Origin: Morinoia aosen
Lineage: Eukaryota; Arthropoda; Malacostraca; Amphipoda; Talitridae
NCBI GenBank assembly: GCA_030386875.1
Contig: CM059572.1
Location: forward strand, 38,871,732-38,935,731
Direction: 5' to 3'
DNA length: 64,000 bases
The notes beneath the pieces are model-generated. The model was not told the DNA's origin. It saw only the letters and a list, made by a program, of their open reading frames with translations, and made no database searches. This document shows, one piece after another, positions 3,350 to 59,758 of this stretch (position 1 is its first letter; each line of letters opens with the position of its first letter). A program made the translations under genes and the position numbers.

Positions 3350-6300
3350 GTAACTATCTCTTTTCATGTACGATGATATTTAACTTTATTAAAATAATTT
3401 CCAAAACTCGGGTGCTTCCTAATGCAAACTGTGGTGGTTATAAAGTTAGAAATTATTTAACCTGGGAGATGTGTATTGTTTAACCATGCAATTGTATTCG
3501 CCATTCTTAATCCACAGGCTTCATATAAATCATGTCAACTTAGAGGGTTTAAATGAGTTTACCAAATTTTGATCCCCCTCAGCATTTTGTCATTGTCATT
3601 TGTACTTGCATATTTCTTTTAATAAACTGCCAAGTTCAGTCTCCATAATTCATTGGAGAATTTGGGGTAAATGTTGAGGACTTGACCATAATTGATTTTC
3701 TAGTTTTGGATGCCTAAATATTGTTAATGAGATGAAAATAAATAATTTTCTTCAATGCACTTTCCGTCGGAAATGAGTATTTCACAAGTTATGGCGGTAA
3801 ATGAGTTACCGGAACTCCAGTGTTTGAGGCAGGAAAAAATATACCGCGTGGTCCGACGTGAAAGTAAACATGCGTTGCCGCATGTTTGCAAGCCGACTTT
3901 GCCATAACTCCACTTTTTGATGCGGGAAAAAATAAATAAGAGAAGCAAATCCCCTATTACAAACGTGAAGAGGTTGGGTCGTGAGGGTTAGCCACATTTC
4001 TTTTAGTGAAAATTATAAAGAAAGGTTGTAACCGACCCATTACGTCGAATGATGCAAAACACATGTAGCCATCACCGCTGCTTCGACGTAACTGGCGGCC
4101 TTGAGGTGACCGCAGGTCCGTCCGTGACTTCAACCCCGGTATAGTATGGGTTCGACGTATCTGGGAACTTTCGAATCAAGTCTTTTGCATCGACAATATA
4201 ACTCGTCATCTCATTAACTATGTTTATGCATAGTAGAATTTTAATTGATTTATAATTTTCACTAAAAGAACTGGGGCTAACCCTCACAACCCAATCTCTT
4301 TACGTTTGTAATAGGGTGATGCTTCCCTTATTTATTTATTCCCGCCTCAAACACTGGAGTTCTGATAACTCATTTACCGCTATAACTTTTAAAATACTCA
4401 TTTCCAACGGAAAGTGCATTGAAGAAAACTTGGGTCAATATTGAATATAATATTGTCAACGAATTTCATAATTTCGTAGGTATAGATGGGTAATATAGTC
4501 GATTTTAAGACGTTTTACACGAATCGCAATATGCCCGGAAATGCTTAGTTTAGGAGATATAGGATAAATAACACCAGGTAAGAATAGCATTAACGGCAGT
4601 TTCGATATGGCTCTTCCGGCGTTTTGCGGACGCGGACCACGCCAAGTTTTTTGGCGGGAGTCATCGGCCTCGGTATGGTTGAGTTAAATTAAGATATATT
4701 AGGCTTACTTAGGTTAGGATACTTAACTAAATTAACTTTACCAAACCTAACCTCATCTATCGTTACGTCAGAACCGGATTTCTGCTTATTTACCTCTCCG
4801 TTTGTTCAATTTTATAAATGACGTTCCTATAACTTCAAAGTTGAATATCTCCAAAAATAAGCATTTCCGGGCATATTGTCATTCGTGTAAAACGTCTTAA
4901 AATCGACTATATTACCTATCTACACCTACAAAATTATGAAATTCGCTGACAACATTATATTCAATATTGACCAAAACTTGTTTCTTTTGATCTCATTAGC
5001 AATATTTAGGCATCAAAAATTCGAAAATCAATTATGATCAAGTCCTCAACATTTACCGAATTTGGTAAACCTTGAGGATTACCCGGGAATCGATACTTGA
5101 TTTTTCGGTGCCTAAACATAGTTAATTAGATCAAAATAAACAATATTTCTTCTATGCACTTTCCTTGCCATTGTGAATAAGTATTTAACAAGTTATAGCG
5201 GTAAAGCACTTACCGCAACTCAAGTGTTTGGAGCAGGAAGTAATTCATCAAGCCCGGCGAATGGCAACACTGAAATGGCGTCTTGCTTCCTTCGCACTCA
5301 TCAAAAACGAAACTAAACCTACCGTGCTAACTCATAAAATATTCATTTGACAAAAAAATTGTATAGAAGTAAAGTAGTTTATTTTGATTTTATTACCATG
5401 ATTTAAGCAACAAAAATTAAAAAATCAATGAGTAGCTGTTTATCCGAGCGCATTCGTCATCAAAGACGAAACTAAACCTACCGCTATAATACGTAAAATA
5501 CTCATTTGCGACAGAAAGTGCATAGAAGAAAACTTGCTTATTTCAATCTAATTCACTATGTTTAGGATTTGGAAAGTGAAAAATCAATTCCCGGTTAATC
5601 CTCAACATTTACCTTAGAATGTACCTTACATTATGTATTTTAATAGAAATATAAAAATAAAAAATCCTTTTTTAAGGTCAACAAAATTCTCGGTAAATGT
5701 TGAGGATTAACCAGTAATCGATTTTCCACTTTTTGGTGCCTAAACGTAGTTAATTAGATCAAAATAAACAAGTTTTCTTCTATGTACTTTCCGTTGTAAA
5801 TGAGGATTTTACGGGTTGTAGCGATAGGTTGTTTCGTCTTTGATGATGAATGCGCTTGAATAAAAAGCTACTCATCGATTTTTTAATTTTTTTGCTTGAA
5901 TCATGGTAATATCATAATAAACGGTAAATCTGAAGGATATGTCAGTTATCGATTTTGTAAATTTTGATGCCTAAGCATAGTTAATTAGATGGAAATGAAC
6001 AAGTTTTCTTCTATGCACTTTCCGTCTCAAATGAGTATTTTATTAGTTAGAGCGGTAAATGACTTACCGCAACTCCAGTGTTTGAAGCGGCAGGTAATTC
6101 AAGGAGCACCTCGGACAGCAACACTGCAATGCGCACTCGTTTCCAGTGCGATCTTCATCAAAAACGAAACCAAACCTACCGCTATATCTCGTTAAATACT
6201 CATTTTACGAAAAAAGTGTATAGAAGAAAAGTTGTTTATTTTGATGTTATTACCATGATTCAAGCAACAAAAATTAGAAAATCGATGAGTAGCTGTTTAT

Positions 6301-9300
6301 TCTAGCGCATTTGTTATCATAGACAAAACTTAACTTACCGCTATAAATCGTAAAATACTCATTTGAGACGGAAAGTTTATAGAAGAAAACTTGTTTATTT
6401 TGATTCAATTAATTAGTTCCAGGCACCAAAAAGTGGAAAATCGATAACTGACATATCCTTCAGATTTACCTAATAAACTACTTCTCTTCTATAAACTTTT
6501 TTTGTCAAATGAGTATTTTACGAGTTAGCGCAGCAGGTTTTATTTTTTGAGCGATTGAGCTGTTGGAGTACATTTGAATGCTTCGTAATTTATTATTAGC
6601 TCACACGCGGAGCTTGAACTCACTTCTAGGATCTTTTACTTAATAACGCAATAGAAATTATGACCCAGAAATAACCAATTATAACGGTATTAATTTTTGT
6701 CTTAGATGGCAAGGGCTCGATCATTTGAGCGCGTCAGAAGCAAGCGTCCATTGCAGTGTTGCCATCTGACACGCTCGATGGATTGCTTCCTGCTTAAAAC
6801 ACTTGAGTTGCGGTAACTAATTTACTGCTATAACTCATAAAATACTTATTTACGACGGAAAGTGCATAGAAAAAAACTTGTTTATTTTGATCTAATTAAC
6901 TATGTTTAGGCACCAAAAAATGGAAAATCAATTACTGGTTAATCCCCAACATTAACCAAATTAAGTTCAGCAGTTGAATTGTGCACTAAGTAAATACTTT
7001 CACCTATTTTTTCATAACAAGTCAGATGGATTGGATTAGGAGGGTGTCAAAAATTTATTTATATTGCAAAATGTTGCCCTAGATCTGCAAAGCTTCACTA
7101 TATCCATCTACTGTGATAAACTTTCTCATCTGAATCTTGATCAGAATAATGCCATTTTGATGTCAATTTATAATGACTAAATATTAATGTTGATTTCATA
7201 CAACCACAATTTGATATGCAATTAGTGCATATGATATGACTACAGGTATGCCAAAACTAATCTATAATACAAGCCATCTAAGACATATATATTATTATGT
7301 GTCTATATAAATGTTTAATCTGCAAGTGTTGAATAATTTGCTCCCCTCAGGGGTAGTGATGCAAAAAAAAACGGTTTTATTTGATGGCGGTTTTTTTTGC
7401 AAAAAAAACGTGTTTTTATGTGTTTTTTTTTGTTTTTTTTGTTTATTTTTGCACACACCTAAATTTTGTCGGGTATATGTCTGGTTTTTTTGGACACCTA
7501 AAATATATTTTAAATCCAATGTTTTTAGTCATTTGTTTGTTATAAAAACATTAAAAAGAAACCATACAGTAAAAGTGGTGGCGGGTAACCCACAATTACC
7601 TAGAGGCGTCTAAGAGGAACAGCAGGAGCCACAGAACTTATATTGATGGAGTCAAAATTCAGAGCTTTCTATCCCTACTATGTCTGATTTTATTTTTATG
7701 TGACCAAAAAAATCAGACATAGCAGAGATAATAAGCTCTGAATTTTGATTCCATCAATATAAGTTCTGTGGTAAGTTATGTGGCTCCTGCTGTTCCTCTT
7801 AGACTCCTAGGTAATTGTGGGTTATCTGCCACCACTTTTACTGTATGGTTTCTATTTTATGTTTTCATTAAAAAAAAATGACTCAAAAACATAGATATTA
7901 ATATATTTTAGATGACCAAAAAACATGCTGTTTTTTAAAACATGTTTTTTTACAAAAAATTCTGACACGTGATATTATGATTTTTTTGTAAAAAAAAAAC
8001 AGAATGGTTATATTTGGTACCAGAAAATATATTAATATTAATATATTTTCTTGTACCAAATATAACCATGCTGTTTTTTTACAAAAAAAATCATTCTAAA
8101 AAACAATATATTTTATATGACCTAAAAACCCCATGCAGTTAAGGGCACGGTTCGGGTCTATTTTCAGATTATGGTCATTTTTCAGTTTATAAACTCATCT
8201 TATAGAGATTTTTCTTGCGCATCCAACGATATAATTGTCTTTCAAGTACGTCAATTGGTTGGTCTTCTGGACGGGGTAAAAGACGCGCACTAGTGTGACC
8301 TTGGGGTGCGCCAATGGATGGGTGACCTCCCTCTTCCCCCCCCATTACGAGCCAGTATTCAGTGTTTCTCTACTGGAATAGCAAGAGATTTCATTCATGG
8401 CCTAACTTGAAATGCTTTCGTACTCAAAGAAACATAGTATTACTCACTTATAAATTATGATGGTGTAATTGAGTGTTTGTTTTGAGTCCGGCTGCTGAGT
8501 CATCAGCTAATTAGCTGGCTATGTAAACATAAACGCCTCCCGGAGTTTTGAAGCTACAGGAATGGCAATTATATCAATCGAAAGGGCCTAAAAAGAGCTA
8601 CAAAGCAATACAGGTTTTTGAAAAAAAATTTAGTCAGCATTGAAAATAAAAAATTATTGAAAAATTAACCATGTTTTGAAACTTATATTTATTGACTTCT
8701 GGTATGGATCCTTACCCACTATTTTGAAGGTACATAAGAAGGTACAGAATCACTGATAAGACTCAATTAAAAAATTAGTACAGAACGATAAAAATTTTTT
8801 TTTGGAAAAATGGCTTTTCTGAATACTAACCTTCTTGATTTTTGAAAACCTACTTCTTCCACCGTTTTGAAGGTACAGAGATGGCGAGCATACCAATCAA
8901 TAGCGATTGAAAAGGAAAATAGATCCGGTGCAAAAGTTTTTTCAAATTTCAATTCACCGCGAAAATTAGAAGCAAATTATTCAAAAAAGTGAAAAAAGAG
9001 GTCATTTTTGTGGAAAAAAGTTCTCAAAATTCAAAAAATAAAATAATCGAAAAACTTTTGCACCGGATCTCTAGACAAGACAATTTGCTATGTAGAGAAT
9101 ATTTTCTGAGTTCTGTGAGTTGAAAATTGTAGGAGTAGGATTTTCCGCAACACATGTTTTTTCATGTTTTTTTAAGAAAAATCTTATTCACGTATGGTTA
9201 CAAAAAATTTGCACAAATCAAAAAAGTTATTAATAACATTTACATCGACGGTAGATATCTCAGAAAAACCCACCGAGAACTTACAGACTTTTTTTTTACC

Positions 9301-12300
9301 CCGAACCGTCCCCTTAACACATTAACTGCGATGGGTTAAACTTCAGTTCAATATTCAATTCAAATTTAAGGAGATCATCCGGGTTTGAGACCTTTTTTTG
9401 TCCAATTTATTTGAAAATTGGCCAGTATATGTCTTTTGTGAAAGTAAACCTTTTTTACTCATGTCATTTTTTCGATTTAGGCCTCAGTTTTTTTTGACAA
9501 AAAATGTGTTTTTGGTATATTTTTCAGATTGGAACTCCTCCTTCAGTTTTGATGCTAGAACAAAAAAAAAGACAGTTTTAGAATCCTTGGAACAATTCTA
9601 ACAAATGCACATTCAGTTTTTTTTTCAAATTCAAATTTTTTCTGTTTTTGTCAAAATTTTTGGAAATTTCAAAAATCAGCAACAATTTTTAGGGTTTAGA
9701 GCTATATATTTCTTCAAAGAATTCAAATTTGAAAAAAAGCCAAATGTACGTTTGTTAGAAATATTTCAAGGATTCTAAAACTGTCTTTGGATTTGTTCTA
9801 GCATCAAAACTCGAGAACTAGTCCCGGGATGAATGTTGAAAATTATAAGTGTTGGGTATAAGCAAAAAAAAATTATGTTGAAGTGTAATATAATGAACAA
9901 TTGATGTAATTGAATGCAGTTTTAATTTTTATTTCGATACTTTCAATACATAACTTCATATTCAAACTGTGAATTGTGATTTAAAAAAAAAATAATTATA
10001 AAAATTTTTCCTTTTTTATATCAAAAAAATAATTTTTTTTTCAGTCTGATTCTTATGAAATTTGACTATGGTATGTAACCTTTGAAAAGAAACAATTGAT
10101 TCCATTCATTTTTTTGATTCAGGCCTTAGATTTGGCAAAAATTTGACATATTGGTTTTTAGGTATTGATATTTCACTAATATCGATATTTCAAAATGGGA
10201 CTCCTTCAGTTTTGATGCTAGAACAAAAACAAATGCAGTTTTAGAATCCTTGGAACATGTCTAACACACTCAAATTCGGCTTTTTTCCATTTCCCATTTG
10301 TTCTCTTTTTATATGGGGTCAAAATCGGGAAAATTGAAAGATTTTGGTCCCTTCACTCCCCCTCCTCCCCGGGAGGGGGGAATTATTGTCGTAGCGCCAT
10401 AAAATTTTAGGAACGAATAGTCCACCAACTAAGGGTCCTTTTACAACAAAAACATGCAAAATGACCATGACATCGCAAGGGCCCCGGATGATCTCCTTTA
10501 AGTCAATTACGTTAATCAACTTTGAAAATGGCAAACATTAAGTGGATCTTGTCTATATTAAGCTTTTATAAAGTATTAATAAACAATAAGTTAGTGACTG
10601 CAGGTGGGTCAACAGCACTATGAAAATCACCTAAGTGACCACCGGTGGGTCCCTTTGCAGGGAATGTGTTAAAAAAAACTTTTTACTAAAAAATCATGAC
10701 TGAAAAAACATGAGTAACATATTTATTAGACCAAAAAAATGTATTTTTACTACAAAATCATGACCTAAAAACATGAATATTTTATGAGACCTTAAAAAAC
10801 CCATGCTGTTTTTTTAAAAAATATGTTATTTTACTAACAATGATATGTAAGAAACCTGGATATGAATATATTTTATGTGACCAAGAAAACCATGCTGTTT
10901 TATTTCACGTGTTTTCCATAAAAACGATGTCTTAAAATCATGGACTTTGATATATTTTGTCACCAAAAAATTTATGTTTTTTTTAAAATGTTTTTTTAAA
11001 AACACGTTTTTATATTAAAAAGTTATTTATTATTCATTTTTTGGTCAGGACTTCATTGTAAAAAAAAACATGAATATTAATTTATTTTAAGTGACCAAAA
11101 TTCATGCTCTGAAAAAAAGTTTTTATTACAAAAATTCATGACTAAAAAAAAACATGAGTATTATTAAATTTTATCTGACCAAAAAACCATGACATTTTTA
11201 AAAAACATGGTTTTTTTTCACAAAGTCATTAATATCTATGTTTTTTTATGGATGATTTTATTTGGTAAAGAAACATGATTTAAAAAACCAGCATGGTTTT
11301 TTTGGCATATAGAATATATTAATATCCATGTTTTTTAGTCATGATTTTTCTGTAAGAAAGATGTTGTTCAAAAAAACAGCATGGTTGCTTATGGTCAAAT
11401 GAAGATTAATATCCGTGTTTTTTAGTCTTGACTTATTTGTAACAAAAACATATTCAAAAAACAGCATGGATTTTTTGGTCACATAAAATATATTAATATC
11501 CATTAGAAACATACCAGGTCTTAGAATAAAATATCTACAAAGAATCTATTCACTCTATGAAACCTTTCGGAGACTAGCTCCATCCTCATTAAGTCATTCA
11601 GCAAAATGTTTTTTAAAGGAACAGTGAAAATTCATTGTCCATTTTACCACATTTTACTGAATGACTAAGGATGGAGCTGGACTCCAAAAGGTTTTGTGGA
11701 GTGAATAGATTCTTAGTAGATATTTTATTCTAAGACCTAGTACAGTTCTAATAAATATGATTTCAATATTAACAGCGTTCTTTGTTTATAAGTTTGTCTG
11801 CTTGAAGAAAATAACTTTCCTGATATTGACATCCGTGTTTTTTGGTCGTGATTTTTTTTGTTTTTTTAAAAAATTTTTTTTTGGTCCCATATAATATAAT
11901 AATAGTTATGTTTTTTTAGTCATGATTTTTCTGTCAAAAAACAATGTTTAAAAAAAACAGCATTGGATTTTTTAGATCACATAAAATATATTAATATCCA
12001 TGTTTTTTAGTCATAATTTTGTATAAATAACATGCTTGAAAAAAAACAATGATTTTTTAGTCCCATCTCTATCAATGACCATAAGTAAAGATATGTTATT
12101 ATAACATACCATTTTGGGAGTTGAAGGTCATTCACATGTATTGTAAAATAAATGAAATATCAAAACATGGAACCGCAGAAAATGAAAAATCTCATAAAAC
12201 CATAGAAAACCATCAATTAAGGAGTATGCTGTTTTATTTTGTAATCCGACATGAAAGCAAATATTGTAAAGTGGTTCTTTTCCTTGCTGAGTTATTTACA

Positions 12301-15300
12301 GACAAAATATTTAAAAAAAAACAAAATATCCACGTTTTTTTTGGCCATGGTTTTTTTTTGTAAAAAAAGCGTGTTTTTTTTAAAAAAACGGCACGGTTTT
12401 TTTAGTCACATCTCTACTCAGGGGGATACAACTTCTATGGGAATTAGCACTCCCAGGGGAACTATGTAAGGGCCTGAGCTAAAGGTTAGGTAGGCTTTCT
12501 TTTTGTTAAAATAGAATAGGTTTTTGTTTTGTTGCGGACCATCTTTTTTGGGTTCACTGCTGTCCTGGTTTTCAGCACCTACTACTTTCTTCTTCAACTT
12601 TTTTTTGTTTCATGATCTTCTTTCTTAGCTTCCTGTTTCTGTGCCCTTTCTGCATAGATTCCGTGTTTCTTTAAGTCCAGACTAAATAGTGCCTTCTTCC
12701 TTCCTCTCTTTGGATAGCCTTTGTTGCGGATAGGGAGGCTTAAACTAACTAATAATCTAATCTGAATAATTTGCTAGGTAGGGGCTAAAAGAATTTGATG
12801 AGTGTATCTGTGATACAGGTTTCACTACTTCACAGGTTTGAATGTAATGCTTCAATCTCGAATACAGTAATATCTCACCATAAAAATTTAATTTGTTTCA
12901 GGATCTACATTGTATGTTGAATTATTAGTGTGTTGGATCAATTATTCCCATAGAAATATATGTAAAACCATGTAATTTGTTCCATAACTTAAAACTTGCC
13001 TAATTTTTGCTTCATATTCGTTGAGATCATAGAGATGTTGTGGCCATATTGCTTTGCCAGATCGCTCTCATACATACCATGTTCCTAGTTTCTATGATTT
13101 CTTACTTTGATATGAAAGCATTCCCCTTTTTTTCACAACTACAATGACTTGCATTAGCCTTCTTTGGACCCATGATTATAGAATAATGATAAAATAAGAC
13201 TTATTATCACAAAGAAGTGGGAGCTGATCGCTGAAGATATTTATGGAGCGAAGCGCAACTGTGAACTGACCTCTCGGTCTTGTCATGAATGTTGCCGCAT
13301 GATGAGGTTAACCACTAAGCTTTGATGTTGTTTGTTGGATTTTCCATTGGATATAGAGCCAATAGTTTGTTCAAATTTCATGTTGTGTGTTGAAAAATTT
13401 GTATGTTGAAACAATCATATGTTGAGGTGTAACTGTATTGTTAAGATAGATACATTTTGGATTATGTGCATTCTGAAAATCAGTATCAAGAAAACCTCGA
13501 AGGGTAGTGAGGCATGTATCAAAGGTACTGCAAATGCACCATCAGTTTTTGAAATAATCTGTAAGTGATGCTATTTTTAACTTAAAACTAAATAATTTAC
13601 ATTGTTTATTAATTATCATTAGTGGGTATAATTTATGACAAGGCACAAGATATTAGTCTGCTATTGTTCCCTGAGTTGCATTTAAATAAGAAGATTACGT
13701 TTTTATCTATTTCAGCAACTAAAGGCCATATTTTGGAAAATACTTCATTGACAAAGTTATACCATACATGGAATATAACTACAGCAGAGTACTGTAAAGA
13801 AATATTTTAGGTTTGTTCATTTACTTTCATAAAAGGTTAATAAATAGAATAATATTTATATATATATGATACCATACAAAAGTTTAATTCTGATACATTT
13901 TGTCAGTTTCTATCCCTTCTAAATGCAGCTTAATGAAATTCTGTAGATTTCTATTCAAACTGGGGTATTGAATCAGAAATACATGATACAATCAAAAGCA
14001 GTAAGTACAATTCTTATTGACATCCTGTATGTCTTGTCCCATTAGTGCACGTGTGTGTCACGAGTGTTCAATTTGACCTATGTGTTCCAATGAAATGCTT
14101 CATTTTATTCAAGTTGGGTACTGAACATGGGTTACGAATGTATTGAAATGAAAGAGAAGTCAATGCAATGCTATAGTAACAAACTTATTTTATTTTTTAT
14201 TTTTATTGGTCATTAGTCATGAAGCAATGTACCTATTGCATCAGAAAAATTTGTCTGCATCTGTGAAACTAACTTGAAATAAAATACTTAGCCCACCATA
14301 CATAGTCCATACCATAGTCAAATATTGATCTTATTAAGGTATCTGTATGATGCCATCATTTTTGATGTAATGGGAACTTCTATTTTTATATGATCATCAC
14401 AGACTTGAACCTATTTGAGTCTCTTTACTGGTTCATGAACTTCTAGCCTATGGTGAACCTCATGAAATGGTTTGAAAATTTGTCTTACCCTAATTTTTTA
14501 AAACTGTATAATCAAGAACAAAAGGAGCTGAGAAATAATAATCTTAATATTGAATATGTTGGTTTGTTTATTAATATTGTAAAGAGAGGACAATCAGAGA
14601 ATATGCAATTGCATAGTGAGAATTTTGCACCAGATTTTAAAGTCTACTATTGTTCCCTAAGCCACCCTTGAATTATAAGACTGAATTTGATCTATATTAA
14701 CAACTGAAGGCCATATTTTGGTAAACACTTTGTCAATAAGGCTATGTCATACCTGAAATAAAACTACAGGAATGTCAGTCAGTGACTTAAGTATTTTTTT
14801 CCTTTGCAGAGAGTGCTTGTGCTGGTACACTCGGACCTTGATGCCATTTGCTCTGGCAAAATTTTGCAGTCCCTCTTTCATGCTGACCATATCCTCTACA
14901 CACTCTGCCCTGTGCTCACTTTGACAGACCTGCAATCTGCTGTTGAAAGTCATAAGGAACAGGTAAATTTTTATTTGTTATTTTATACAGATATGTTAAA
15001 GTTAGAAGTGCATCATGTTGCACTGGAGTGAATTTTTCCAAACCAAGCATATCAGTGATACATTTTGAACTTCACTGCCTTGTTCTTCTGTGTGGTGTGC
15101 TGATGTATGTATGATACAAATTCTCGACATGTATGTTTGATATAGGATTGAGGGTTCCCCTAAGTTTATGCAGTATGGTTTGTTGAGTAATTTATAAAAG
15201 TAAACAATTACCAAAATGGAAAAATCTGTATTCTTTCTTTACGGTAGCTAGTACCTTCTGATATATTTGTAGTAACCTGCAATAGTTTGTTGTAAAAGCA

Positions 15301-24300: not shown

Positions 24301-27300
24301 TGCGTTAAGAGGTAATAACTTAATTCAGGGGAAGTTGATCGAATTGAAACAGCGTTACCAGATTTGCCTTTTTATGGTATAAAATAAAAAGTCAAGGCTT
24401 TTTTGGAAAATGAAATTTGATCTGAAAGACCACTGAACATCAACCACTCTTTGCAGTAAATGACTGTTGATACTGGATTAGAGTTGCATGTCGCAGAGGA
24501 TGCAGCTGTGGGAGAGACGAATTGATGTTAGGAGCGGAGTCTTGAAGGATTGCTTTTGAATATTTTCATAAAGCATTACGTCTCAGCCACTCATTGTTTG
24601 TGTTTCTTCTTGTCTTGAAACTAAATCCACTCATTAATATCTTGGCTTTGCCAAAGGCATCTTGGTAAAAATTATTTTTTTGCATCATCTGTTTTGCAAA
24701 GTTGTGTCTTATACTGGCTCTCGTTTCGATAGTATGGTTCACCCGGTATATTGGCTTAGACCATTTTCGTAGTAACTGTACTTGCCTGAAGTACAGTAGT
24801 TGCATCTGTGCTGATTCAGAATGAAGCATCAGTAGCATCGATAACTATTTGAAATTATCTAATACCTATTTCAAATTCTTTTGCATTATCTAATAAGTTT
24901 TGATAACGCTGATCCATACTCATTCCATTTCATTCTTTATTACTTAGCCCGCATCCTGCCTACCTCGTCACACGTTAGCTATTTTTTTTCTCTTCACTGA
25001 GCAGAATTAGTAATTGTCTCCAACATTGATATTGAGCCCAGTCGCTGTTTACTGAAAATTCCCTTGACCGTGCACACTTAATGCTTTTTCCTCACGATGT
25101 CGGTGCAGGGCTCGCCCTTGGCGCCGTTCTTTAGCGGGCCGCACGTGCTGGGCGCGCTGGGCAGGTTCACGCTGGCTGCTCATGTGAGCGCGTCCCGCAA
25201 CAAGAAGGCGCGCTCCCTGCCGCTCGTGCTCACCACCCCCGACTGCGCCCGGCCTGAGGACTGGTGCCTCGTGTGCGGGGTGCCTCCGCTCGCTGACCAC
25301 TCCCACAGGAAGTGAGAATTAGTAGCTTTTTGTGGTGTTCCTCCCTCGATGTTGCGTCGTTCGTGCGAGATGCGCGTATTCAATTTTGCCTTTTGTTGGG
25401 CTATGTGCTAAAATATGGCGGATTTTGTGTTCTCTGAATGGTAGTGGAATTTGTTTTTGGGTTACTGGTTTTTCTGCTTCGTATGGTGAAACATCACATC
25501 GCGTCGTGCGGAGTTTTCAAACCTAAAAAAATTTTTTGTATTTAAAAACATCAGCACTTAGCCTTGGTTATAGTCTATGTATATCGACTGAAACCTGTCA
25601 CCATAGACCACACTAAAGTAAGAAAAAAACACTTCGACCCTTTCTATGATTAGGAACGTGAAGAGAAAAATATAGGTTTTTGGTGCTATGCAGTGCTCGG
25701 CTGAACATCGTAGTTTTTTTGCAAAAAATATCATTTTCGGGCAGTATAGTCAGTGGAGTTCAAAGGTTCAGTAAGATCTATTTTCAGTAGGATCAACGGA
25801 TTCGTGCTGTGAAAGTTAAGTTTCGTCTTCCAATATATCTCCATGGCATGTCAATCTCTGACACAGAGGCACATTTAGTGTTCTGGTGTGGCGCAGTGTG
25901 CCGGCACGCTGATCTGAGCACCGGAGAGAGGCAGCCAGTTTTCACATGTCTGATGAGTATTGGTTTGTGCAATAAAAGCATGCTATTTAGTTCCTCACAT
26001 TGTTTGTTTTTGTTGATGCAATAATTGAATCGTTTCTCCAATTGGGATATTTTTCCAATAGTTTTTTCCGCCTTAAAATCATGGAGCTTCAGCTTTTGAT
26101 CAGATGAATAAAATAATTTTCAGCGCAACAAGTCCCTGAAACTTAATTTTCCTGTCGACTAGTATCAGAGCACAGTGTTTTCTCAAACTGAATATCATAA
26201 CCTGAGGAACCTTTTTGGGTTTTGGGTGTACAATTATGTGAATGTGTGCTCCTAGGGGAAGATGTGACGCTCCGATCTGAAGCTTAGGAAGGCCTTCCTT
26301 CTGTTGAAATAGAATCGGTTTTTGATTTTGTTGGGTTACGGACCAACTTTTTTCGGTTCAGTGCTGTCCTTTTTTATGCACATATTACTTTCTTCTTCAC
26401 TTTCTATCATGTTTCATCAACTTGTTTCAATTTTACTGTTTCTATGCGCATGAAATTCTATTTGAGAACACACTTGTGCATAGATTCCTCGTCCCTCTAA
26501 TTCCGTACTTGATTGTGCCTCACTCATTTTTTTTGGGAGAAATTTTAAGACGACAAAATTATACTGAAATTGAAGACGCTAAAATTATTTTGAAATCTAA
26601 TTTAATCAAATCTGCTGAACCTTGTTACATGGTAAATAAATATTACAATAAATTTTTGGGGTCAGTCTGGCTTCTACTCGCTCGGGCATAAAACAATCTC
26701 ATCAACGGCCACAATTAACACGTTAACTGCGATGGGTTAAACTGAAGTTCAATATTCAATTCAAATTTAAAGTCAATTGTGGTAATCACCTCTGAAAATA
26801 GCAAATATTAACTGGATCGGGCCTTCATTTAGATTTCAAAAAGTATTAATAAAAAATGAGTTAGTGACTGCAGGTGGGTCAGCAGCACAATGAAAATCAC
26901 CTAAGTGACCACCGGTGGGTCCCTTCGCAGGAAACGTGTTAAGCGAGTGCAGTGTGCCTTCAGTGACAATTTGGCAGCATCATGCGAACGAGGGTTGAGC
27001 ACTTCTTGCTACGCAGGATGCCGAGTGCACATAGAATCAAACAGAGAATACTACCTATAGTACAAATTTGGCGATTAACATTTCAACCCTATTTTAATTT
27101 GAAAAGTTTAGTGGTACATTCAACACCTGCTGAAGCATAGATGTTTCTGCCTCTTATTAAGAAAAATCTATTCTAGTATTTGACCCTTCAGAGGACATGT
27201 GATAGGCTTTGGTTAATTAGGTGTGTCCATTCTCTATATTACGGGGACTGGTGCCTTACGGAGGGAATGCAGTCAGGTCACCTCAGTTATGGGCCTTTGG

Positions 27301-35482: not shown

Positions 35483-38400
35483 CTGCCCAAATAAAATTAG
35501 GTTAATGTTTTTTTGGCAGCATTTTAAGCCATTTCATTTCATTCGGAAATTACTTGCTCTAGGTTAAGGATTCTGATGCATGTTTCCCCTTAGATTTATA
35601 GGAGAGATCTTGTAAGGTGACCGCAGCTGTAAATAAGTCTTCGGGAATTGAATATGTTTCGTGCCGGTTTTGCTCTCAGTTTTCATGGTTTCTTCGCTAT
35701 CGCTTGTTTTTATTTTCTTCCTTTTCCTTTTCATTCCTTACATATTATTTTATGCTCTAAATCTACTGCTCGAGAAAACGCATGTGCGTAGATTCCCCGT
35801 TTTCTCAAGTCCATCCTAAATGGTCTCTCCTCTTTGCTCTCCCGAGATCGCTTTAGATGTGACTTGGGAGTCCTAAACTTTAATAGCATGAAGATAGTTT
35901 CAGGTGAAACACTTTGACGGAATTTTTGCGATGCGTAAGTCAATTTGATTTGCGTTGTGTTTACCACGGAGCCGCGTGAAATTACGAACTGACACATGCA
36001 TTTGCTGTGTAAAGTTTCACGTAAATTTTTCGTTTTGCACACCCTTTTCACGCGCAGCACAGCTTTTTAAACTTGGAGCTGGTCGTGAAGTACGTCAGAT
36101 TCCCGAACCATTGCCAAAAGATATTGTGAATTTTGTTATATCCAGTCTTCGTCCGTTGAGGACGAGACGTTTCACGCAGACATCTGCAATCTTCCTGTAG
36201 ATTTTTCGTAGGATTAATTTTTATATGAGGTACGCCTTGTTTTGTTTCTTCTCACTCGCCGTGGCGCGGGCTGACTTTTTCTGCGAGCTCGAAGGCGCAT
36301 AATTGTGTTCCTGACTCCCTTCCGCTTATTTTTTCTTGCGGGAGGTAGCCTCCGTTTGTCTGTAAGATGCTTTCAGAGCTGTTGCTTCCTTATCCTTCTA
36401 CCTATGATATTTATAATTATTTTCCAGTGCATATTTTACTGAATATTTCCCTCTTCAGAGGGAGATGCTTCTTGTATCTGAGAATTAGCGCTTCCAAGGG
36501 AAAGATACGAGATCCCGAGCTGGAAGTTAAGTAATCCTTCATCTTGATGAAATTGATTAGATTTACTTTAATTTTGTCATGGACGATTTTTCCTTCGATA
36601 CACTGCTGTTTTTTTCAGCGCCAGTTGCATGCTTCTTCAACTTGTATCTTGTTTCATTAATTTTTTTTAATCGTACACGCCATGTGCATAGATAGATTAT
36701 TTTGCTATTTGTTTCCATTTCTATCTATTTTATTTTGAAATGACCTGTTAAATGAAATGGACGACATGCAAATGAAATGGACGACATGCAAATGAAATGG
36801 ACGACATGCAAATGAAATGAACGGCATGCAAATGAAATGAACGGCATGCAAATGAAATGAACGGCATGCAAATGAAATGAACGGCATGCAAATGAAATGA
36901 ACGGCATGCAAATGAAATGGACGACATGCAAATGAAATGGACGACATGCAAATGAAATGGACGACATGCAAATGAAATGGACGACATGCAAATGAAATGG
37001 ACGACATGCAAATGAAATGGACGGCATGCAAATGAAATGGACGGCATGCAAATGAAATGAACGGCATGCAAATGAAATGAACGACATGCAAATGAAATGA
37101 ACGACATGCAAATGAAATGAACGACATGCAAATGAAATGAACGACATTCCAAGGAAATGAACGACATGCAAATAAAATGAACGGCATGCAAATGAAATGA
37201 ACGACATACAAATGAAATTGAATTAAAAAGTTGGCGCGACTCACTGATGCTGCCGTAAGGCAAGTTGCGGCACGAGTACTCGATGGTCCAGGACTTGTAG
37301 TCAGTGCCGGACACCTCGTAATGGTCTTCGAAGATGGTGCGCGGCACGCCGGATATGGTGTAGGACAGCCGGTTGGGTGCGGCGTACGGCTGCTTCCGGA
37401 AGATGTCCACGAAAATCTTCATCGGCTTCCGTAGTCTGAGGATAAATAACTTTTTGGAAGGAAGGAAAACCGATGTCGTGATGCAAGGACTCCGACGTCG
37501 CTAGCGAATATCGAACACTAATAATTGTGAAATACTGTTGTGGTCGTCTTGAATATCTAGCGCGGTAAAGTGGGAAATATGATGCAGATTTTACAGTAGG
37601 AAGGAGCCTAATTGTTTTGATGGAAATCATTAGTTTTATCGAAAGATACGTGAAGCATTTCTTCGTAGAAGTTTATTCATCAGACACACACTGATTAATG
37701 AAGTACGACTCCGAGTTGAAATTGTGGAATTTGTCACTCCTCGGGACGATACAAGTATTATATCTACAGGAATTAGCGCTCCCAGGGGGGATATGTGAGG
37801 TTCCGAGCTAAAGGTTAGGTAGGCCACCCTTTTGTTGTAACAATAGTTGTTTTGCTGTTACCGACCACCTTTTTTCCGGTTTACTGCTGACCTGTATTTT
37901 AGCACCTACCACTTTCTGCTTCAACTTACATCTTGTTTCATGAACTTATTTCTCAACTTACTGTTTCTATGCACCTTGTGCATAGATTCTGCGTTCCCTT
38001 AACTCCATGCTTAATGTTGCCTTCCTCCTTCCTCTTTTTGGAACGCCTTTGTTGCGGTTAGGGAAGCTCAAACTGAACAATTTAAACAAATTAAACAATT
38101 AACTAACATCTGATCCGATGAATTTGTCAATATTTAAACGATTTCTTCATTCCATTCAAGTTTTCAAACTTGTTTGTGCTGTTGTATGAGAGAAACTATG
38201 ATCACCATTCGAAGTTTTCTCACTGACACCGAATTACACTCCGCATCGCTACGTTTTGAGCGTAATGCTGTTGCTGTGCTGGACTCCCAAGTTATCGAGT
38301 TGAAACCTCGTTGCGATCCGCTTATTGTAGCTCAGCCCTCCGAGAAATACTCAATAATGATGAGTTGTGAATCGTTTGGAAAATTTTATCGTTGATTTTG

Positions 38401-58512: not shown

Positions 58513-59367
58513 CTACATGTCATTAAGCTGAGGCTTTAATTTGTGGATGTAGAGGGACTCTAAAATTCTAAGTTTAACTGAATTACTGGAATAACCTAAT
58601 ATGGAAAAGTCTGATGCAGAAATTGATGAATTGCACTGAAACTCTGTGTGAGACCTAATTGAGGAATGGGAAGGATGGCAAAGGCGTGCACTTGTTCTAT
58701 GACTTATTCCTGCATGTTCCGACCGCCTTACACGCAATGTGCGGCTCGTTGAGCCCACATATGCAGATGCACATTGTGCACAACTGTATTTATAAACAAG
58801 GCAGGAGCGGAGACATTCAGGAAGTTTGTCTTTAAAATGAAAAAGTGACCCAATGGTGAACCTATTTACTAACAATACTTGAAAAGAAATTTGTGGAAAG
58901 AACGAAGACAGTAACATTAGTAATTCTTTTCTAAGGGTTTCAGATGATGATCCTATATAAGGGAAGGTTATAAACATTTTTTGTTTTTCTGCGGTAGAAA
59001 CAGTTGGGCTGGTATGGTATATATTATTGAGAAACCGATTTATATGATATTGAATTAGACGTAAGGGGTAGCCATTGGAGGAAAAAAAGCGTGTTAAAAA
59101 TTCTAACTCATTATGCAAAAACGGGTAATTAGAACAAATTTTATACCCGCGGGACAGTAAGGTTTTTAAGCTATTTATTTTAAATTGAAAAGAGCAATGG
59201 CTAAAAAAGCTCGAACCTAATCCTGAAAAGGACGATTTACGAAAAACTGAAGTTTGGAGTGTTCGACCCTGTCTTTTCAATAAAATATCTAAAAATGCTA
59301 ATGAGTTTTCTTTTTCTCCTTCCATAGTAAAATTAATAGCTGTATGCTTGGAGTTCAGATAATTCAA
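58513..59367 (-). CDS. Penelope-like element: RT C-terminal part plus GIY-YIG endonuclease
   Basis: 284 codons, 5'-truncated. The N-terminal part (LNSKHTAINFTMEGEKENSL AFLDILL, then TSVFRKSSFSGL and a thumb-like region with NGYPLRLI) matches the end of Penelope-type reverse transcriptases. The C-terminal part (VYKYSCAQCASAYVGSTSRT and RRSEH) is the Penelope GIY-YIG endonuclease with its Cys pair. Such proteins copy element RNA and nick target DNA. The catalytic RT core (YxDD) is absent, so this copy cannot be autonomous. It stops at TAG after QLNDM. Confidence 0.88.
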   Translation of the reverse strand: MNYLNSKHTAINFTMEGEKENSLAFLDILLKRQGRTLQTSVFRKSSFSGLGSSFFSHCSFQFKINSLKTLLSRGYKICSNYPFLHNELEFLTRFFSSNGYPLRLIQYHINRFLNNIYHTSPTVSTAEKQKMFITFPYIGSSSETLRKELLMLLSSFFPQISFQVLLVNRFTIGSLFHFKDKLPECLRSCLVYKYSCAQCASAYVGSTSRTLRVRRSEHAGISHRTSARLCHPSHSSIRSHTEFQCNSSISASDFSILGYSSNSVKLRILESLYIHKLKPQLNDM

Positions 59368-59482
59368 AAATAGTTGGGCATTAGAAGCATGGTCACTTTT
59401 TCATTTTAAAGACAAACTTCCTGAATGTCTCCGCTCCTGCCTTGTTTATAAATACAGTTGTGCACAATGTGCATCTGCATAT

Positions 59483-59758
59483 GTGGGCTCAACGAGCCGC
59501 ACATTGCGTGTAAGGCGGTCGGAACATGCAGGAATAAGTCATAGAACAAGTGCACGCCTTTGCCATCCTTCCCATTCCTCAATTAGGTCTCACACAGAGT
59601 TTCAGTGCAATTCATCAATTTCTGTATCAGACTTTTCCATATTAGGTTATTCCAGTAATTCAGTTAAACTTAGAATTTTAGAGTCCCTCTACATCCACAA
59701 ATTAAAGCCTCAGCTTAATGACATGCAGAGCGCTCACCCTCTTCACATAGTTAGTTAG
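59483..59758 (+). pseudogene. Penelope-like element, inverted truncated copy
   Basis: The plus-strand arm repeats the GIY-YIG part (from about 59400, FHFKDKLPECLRSC, to QLNDM). Its stop codon is changed to CAG, adding QSAHPLHIVS. One other residue differs (ISVSDF against ISASDF). Only the endonuclease end is present. Confidence 0.85.

Follow-up and report, generated by a model that had tools for sequence, protein, structure and literature searches.

The subject of this analysis is a nest of transposable elements lying at positions 7330-12775 of a 64,000-nucleotide stretch of the genome of the amphipod Morinoia aosen (C17:38871732-38935731; hereafter, the window). The nest is composed of a short interspersed nuclear element (SINE)-like repeat, interrupted by a non-autonomous hAT-type element that harbors, in turn, three TTAA-type elements, here named A, B, and C, the last of which is embedded in B. 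The locus is almost certainly a common type of accumulation of non-coding transposable elements, part of which was assembled elsewhere: the hAT element already carrying B and C, i.e., hAT(B+C), multiplied, one copy landed in the SINE-like repeat, and A was then added. Hence, the local order of insertion is SINE-like repeat, hAT(B+C), and A, preceded in the hAT lineage by B and then by C. Nested transposons, as well as nested units that are copied together, are already known.

The genome searched amounts to 1.99 Gb in 29 contigs and contains 17 matches to PF00372, the middle domain of hemocyanin, a family of arthropods; 14 of these matches extend over the entire domain. The hAT family was sampled using the right half of the element as a query, which retrieved 39 further scored matches, 88-96% identical in their best stretch; the 20 other full-length copies that were examined (hereafter, the siblings) are the best-scoring of these 39 matches, L028, whose locus consists of the right half only, having been passed over. 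In all 20 siblings, the left half of hAT, the left part of B, C, the right part of B, and the right half of hAT follow one another in the same place and in the same orientation (in L052, the best alignment with C starts at base 489, although the left border of C is present). In an overlapping earlier set, B+C was found in 10 of 11 copies, the eleventh being L028, where the left half is missing from the locus and a hAT/B junction is listed approximately 10 kb upstream. Since B+C occupies the same place in 20/20 copies, it belonged to the element before the latter multiplied and was not gained here. A phylogenetic tree of 25 copies (19 loaded, three with B only, and three with neither; L043, L052, L054, and L057 were excluded) joins the loaded copies in a single clade with a bootstrap value of 100, the B-only copies being placed between the loaded and the B-free ones. 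Moreover, the distances calculated over C follow those calculated over the hAT parts (r = 0.56 for 20 copies, with 0/5000 permutations as high; L052 was left out of this test and of the hAT consensus), and a loss of 3 bp at the B junction is found in all 20 siblings and in none of four C-free copies.

The original prediction had read the age of the elements directly from their depth, so that the SINE, an empty hAT element, the TTAA elements, and C would have arrived here one after another. This is the simplest reading of the nesting, and the outer duplications do exist; however, the common position of B+C in 20/20 hAT copies, the single loaded clade, and the correlation between hAT and C distances make it very improbable as a whole. 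What survives of it is that the SINE-like repeat preceded hAT, that hAT preceded A at this locus, and that B preceded C in the lineage; what is refuted is the local arrival of B and C, which were aboard before the entry into the SINE-like repeat, and the youngest insertion turns out to be A. The same data bear on the idea that B and C entered many hAT copies independently, targeting one site. The fixed 4-bp target of TTAA elements and one copy of A (L014), whose neighboring sequence resembles the left end of B, speak in its favor, but sharing of base and orientation in 20/20 copies, a single clade, matching distances, and a common junction change leave it extremely improbable; the distance test opposes it too, yet the nearest neighbor over C is also the nearest over hAT in only 9/20 copies. 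An origin of the hAT copies by segmental duplication of a single locus, rather than by transposition, is scarcely credible, since, even though one pair is indeed a duplication (the flanks of L036 and L040 are 99.8% identical over 549 bp), the others lie in different flanks, apart from a 290-bp stretch at 90% identity common to L043 and L044, each with its own 8-bp duplication.

The stages through which the nest was assembled can still be observed, since every intermediate (hAT, hAT+B, hAT+B+C, and hAT+B+C with A) survives in one genome. When the joined hAT flanks of B were used as a query, 40/40 scored matches crossed the B site, disclosing hAT elements without B (four of them were read base by base). 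Likewise, 4/40 scored matches to hAT+B without C span the query, and in these the unbroken empty site reads AAATTTAA(A/C)GTC. As for A, it is absent from 20/20 siblings, and its left junction with this hAT copy occurs once in the genome, even with two mismatches allowed. The divergence from the family consensus is 11/1171 for A, 82/3872 for hAT+B+C, and 10/349 for the SINE-like repeat, figures that have relative value only, the compared copies being the best-scoring ones; on this scale, A is less divergent than both hAT+B+C (P = 0.009) and the SINE-like repeat (P = 0.015). Thus A, which is shallower than C, is the youngest insertion at the locus.

On the basis of these data, the following succession of events is very likely. 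The 219-bp B entered an ancestral non-autonomous hAT element of approximately 2.5 kb, and the 1127-bp C then entered that B. The resulting 3.9-kb hAT(B+C), on the ends of which a hAT transposase would have acted, multiplied until a few tens of copies or more were present, and one of these entered the already landed SINE-like repeat, duplicating CTCAGGGG. Lastly, in this copy and in no other, the 1171-bp A entered the junction between hAT and B. Both empty and filled sites exist in the same genome for the entry of B, of C, of hAT into the SINE-like repeat, and of A. The enzymes would have been of hAT type for the carrier, of TTAA type for A, B, and C, and those of a long interspersed nuclear element for the SINE-like repeat.

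Several observations weigh against this reconstruction. The 20 siblings are not a random sample, and the remaining 19 places include at least one C-free copy (L058, at C11:4177489), so that B+C is not universal in hAT. In runs of T or A, the empty site of B shows a few base differences, and the empty site of the SINE-like repeat was not found in the genome searched. The divergences of the SINE-like repeat and of hAT do not differ significantly (P = 0.34), and therefore the precedence of the former is derived from the nesting alone; moreover, their intervals overlap (1.4-5.2%, a wide one, for the SINE-like repeat and 1.7-2.6% for hAT), so that the entry of C into hAT may have preceded or followed the landing of this SINE-like repeat. 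The window's hAT copy is also uneven, with a Kimura two-parameter distance of 0.014 in its left part and 0.028 in its right part. The exact junctions detected in the genome (31) comprise 25 short and six long ones, that of the window being unmatched since A interrupts it. Among the six, C1:29548617 and C6:25381613 lie about 1.2 kb from right-part matches of the B-without-C query and probably carry C. If they do, the 3-bp loss is later than C and marks the main loaded group, not C itself. Finally, no transposase was tied to the SINE-like repeat, hAT, A, B, or C, no autonomous hAT partner having been searched for.

The outermost element is a SINE-like repeat of approximately 350 bp in total (7343-7353 plus 12417-12762), and its predicted 13-bp duplication is perfect. 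The sequence TGAATAATTTGCT is present at both borders and occurs twice in the window, versus 0.004 occurrences expected. From base composition, the chance of an identical 13-mer at fixed positions is about 3e-8, and in 400,000 random pairs of window positions, with window repeats and coincident positions included, the frequency of identity was 2e-5 for 13-mers and 4e-5 for 8-mers. The right part of the repeat has at least 40 matches in the genome besides its own place (the 40 scored candidates of 7060), up to 95% identical, and the window itself contains 16 further matches, 12 of which are at least 200 bp long. Uninterrupted copies continue across the hAT insertion point, and the removal of hAT in silico gives CCC-CTCAGGGGGATACAACT, which is the head of such copies, the only exception being a 6-bp private deletion just downstream. 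The prediction that excision restores the underlying sequence is thus borne out, the restored sequences matching uninterrupted copies of the same genome. The target duplications of other SINE-like copies scored at least 11 in 4/7 cases, versus 0/300 random pairs; among the remaining three, L006 scored 0, L008 scored 7, and in L004 the script placed the anchor wrongly. The head of the repeat folds no better than shuffled sequences. A low-complexity origin of the 13-bp and 8-bp repeats, against which the original prediction had warned, was checked and is rejected by the occurrence counts in the window and by the duplications flanking the hAT siblings. A duplication of the whole locus was rejected as well: the two flanks of the SINE-like repeat are joined nowhere, and other matches, themselves partial, exist for no more than a portion of the right flank.

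The hAT-type element is 2533 bp long without inserts (one TTAA counted), 3888 bp with B+C, and 5063 bp when A is added. Its predicted location inside the SINE-like repeat is corroborated by CTCAGGGG, which is found on both sides (7346-7353 and 12417-12424) and after which the repeat is split. This 8-mer occurs six times in the window, not each of which was traced, and 8-mer identity at fixed positions has a chance of about 3e-5 by base composition; the strongest control against chance is that 20/20 siblings are flanked by 8 duplicated bp, without mismatches in 19 and with 7/8 identical bases in the other. The composition of these duplications shows a palindromic bias, with a pyrimidine at position 3 and a purine at position 6, each in 19/21 copies. 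The terminal inverted repeats of hAT elements follow a YAGRGNTG-like motif; here, the ends are TAGTGATGC and TAGAGATGTG, with few changes in the 20 siblings, as expected of hAT-type termini. The element is non-coding, its longest stop-to-stop frame being 92 amino acids. The term "foldback" that had been applied to it is a loose one: the element combines short, imperfect ends with internal hairpins and opposed repeats of approximately 85 bp, and has no single long perfect inverted repeat. Near the locus, 20 Rfam matches were retrieved, all of them below the gathering scores and mostly corresponding to microRNA families on the hAT hairpins. As a side observation, the window region 4418-6962 contains repeats, in both orientations, that are common to the flank of the hAT copy L042. 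In two other regions (C7, near 19268201-19280211, and C24, near 85341898-85353565), a distance of approximately 10 kb separates hAT/B junctions from right halves of like orientation, which suggests large later insertions inside those hAT copies.

The head of the SINE-like repeat, the palindromic CCCCTCAGGGG, has been entered by hAT more than once. In L047, hAT is located at the same base of another SINE-like copy, and C16:14796584, which shows the same right hAT/SINE junction with two mismatches, is probably another such case; overall, 3/21 hAT copies (L047, L039, and that of the window) lie within a SINE-like repeat. A hotspot test on the head gave one exact junction and two with at most three mismatches, plus L047; these cases are too few, and a strong hotspot is not claimed. 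It seems rather unlikely that the whole of a broader picture holds, in which the hAT lineage grew in two steps by swallowing elements, its loaded form has recently done at least as well as its leaner ancestors, and the head represents a recurrent landing pad, a single base of which has received three or more insertions (the window, L047, and probably C16:14796584).

The presence of TTAA-type insertions in hAT was correctly predicted: both A and B lie between TTAAs, one of which is common to the two. In A, 13/14 terminal bases of the inverted ends match, and 11/11 other copies examined have TTAA at both ends, in agreement with a TTAA-type element. In L014, the copy of A adjoins TTAACACGTTAA, which resembles the left end of B. 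B, together with C, spans 9318-10668, between the TTAAs at 9314-9317 and 10669-10672. It also exists outside hAT, i.e., in the window at 26719-26938, where it is C-free and has TTAA at both ends, and a B-like match (96%) at C8:17069084 ends at the B borders. The innermost element was rightly described as 1127 bp long and located in B, even though its perfect terminal repeats extend over 14 bp and not 13. C is mobile alone: 66 exact right ends followed by TTAA and then C, G, or T were found (the control gave 0), and among eight C loci that were read, four have TTAA at both ends with the exact left motif, three reach the first base of C without the motif, and one is truncated. Hence, B and C are of TTAA type as well. 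The TTTAA duplication attributed to C did not hold, since the sequence following its right end is TTAAAG in 19/20 siblings and TTAAAAG in the other one; thus, the true duplication is TTAA and the window carries a private A-to-T change. In other loci, an internally deleted, TTAA-flanked C of about 139 bp was found (L067), and in the hAT+B copy L057, the end of a C relative directly followed by TTAA lies to the left of the hAT fragment. The positions of all these features are listed in Table 1.

Table 1. Components of the nest, in order of position in the window.
Feature	Positions	Strand	Remarks
SINE-like repeat, left 13-bp target duplication (TGAATAATTTGCT)	7330-7342
SINE-like repeat, 5' head CCCCTCAGGGG, left of hAT	7343-7353	+	The final 8 bp form the hAT target duplication
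hAT-type element (non-autonomous) together with its inserts; termini TAGTGATGC... / ...GTCACATCTCTA	7354-12416		8-bp duplication here and in 20/20 other copies
TTAA, left duplication of A	8139-8142
Element A, 1171-bp non-coding TTAA-type element	8143-9313		Only inner element specific to this hAT copy
TTAA common to A (right end) and B (left end)	9314-9317
Element B (219 bp when C is not counted), left part	9318-9369		C-free copies: window 26719-26938, L057-L060
Element C, 1127-bp non-coding TTAA-type element inside B, 14-bp perfect terminal repeats	9370-10496
TTTAA at the right border of C	10497-10501		TTAA in all 20 siblings; private substitution
Element B, right part	10502-10668
TTAA, right duplication of B	10669-10672
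SINE-like repeat, remainder (346 bp)	12417-12762	+	First 8 bp are the second hAT target duplication
SINE-like repeat, right 13-bp target duplication (TGAATAATTTGCT)	12763-12775

Elsewhere in the window, two inverted open frames are located at 58513-59400 (minus strand) and 59363-59758 (plus strand), the first of which has no Pfam match; they contain a motif that we take to resemble the GIY-YIG endonuclease of Penelope-like elements. At 36705-37500 (minus strand), several frames are open in a repeated HFICMPFISFACRSF-like unit, which is probably a minisatellite.

The single components can be compared with known groups of elements. The outer repeat shares with SINEs a length of approximately 350 bp, a fixed 5' end, target duplications of variable length, and a tail of short repeats. 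Neither an RNA polymerase III box nor a transfer RNA was recovered by simple scans (regular expressions and ARAGORN) of one copy, L003. The carrier resembles non-autonomous hAT transposons in its 8-bp duplications with palindromic bias, its short ends (TAGTGATG/TAGAGATGTG), and its lack of coding capacity; it differs in the long AT-rich body made of opposed repeats and in the fact that its lineage carries two other elements. Groups of DNA elements targeting TTAA include piggyBac-like elements, Kolobok, and Sola3. A, B, and C share with such elements the duplication of TTAA and the short inverted ends, whereas A and C are devoid of coding sequence and B is just 219 bp long, features from which a superfamily is not assignable.

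As far as the nest is concerned, transposition has here produced a compact and documented counter-example to the inference of age from nesting depth: the deepest element joined the lineage of its host before the latter reached the locus, and a shallower one is the youngest. The full series of intermediates makes it a good benchmark for nesting-based chronologies; the locus is uninformative on the function of host genes. The "composite MITE" (miniature inverted-repeat transposable element) of PMC1562414 is, as that source describes it, a chimera of two P subfamilies and not a nest. According to the paper on REANNOTATE (PMC2672092), the nesting level reflects the order of insertion, and a nesting element bounds the age of its contents. 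The same source reports that in Drosophila melanogaster a COPIA2 element with a nested INVADER1 multiplied as a unit. As in the present case, the nested element was there before its host multiplied, and depth is misleading about the order of events at each copy; however, that multiplication occurred in tandem (PMC2672092), whereas in M. aosen the loaded element was transposed to dispersed sites.

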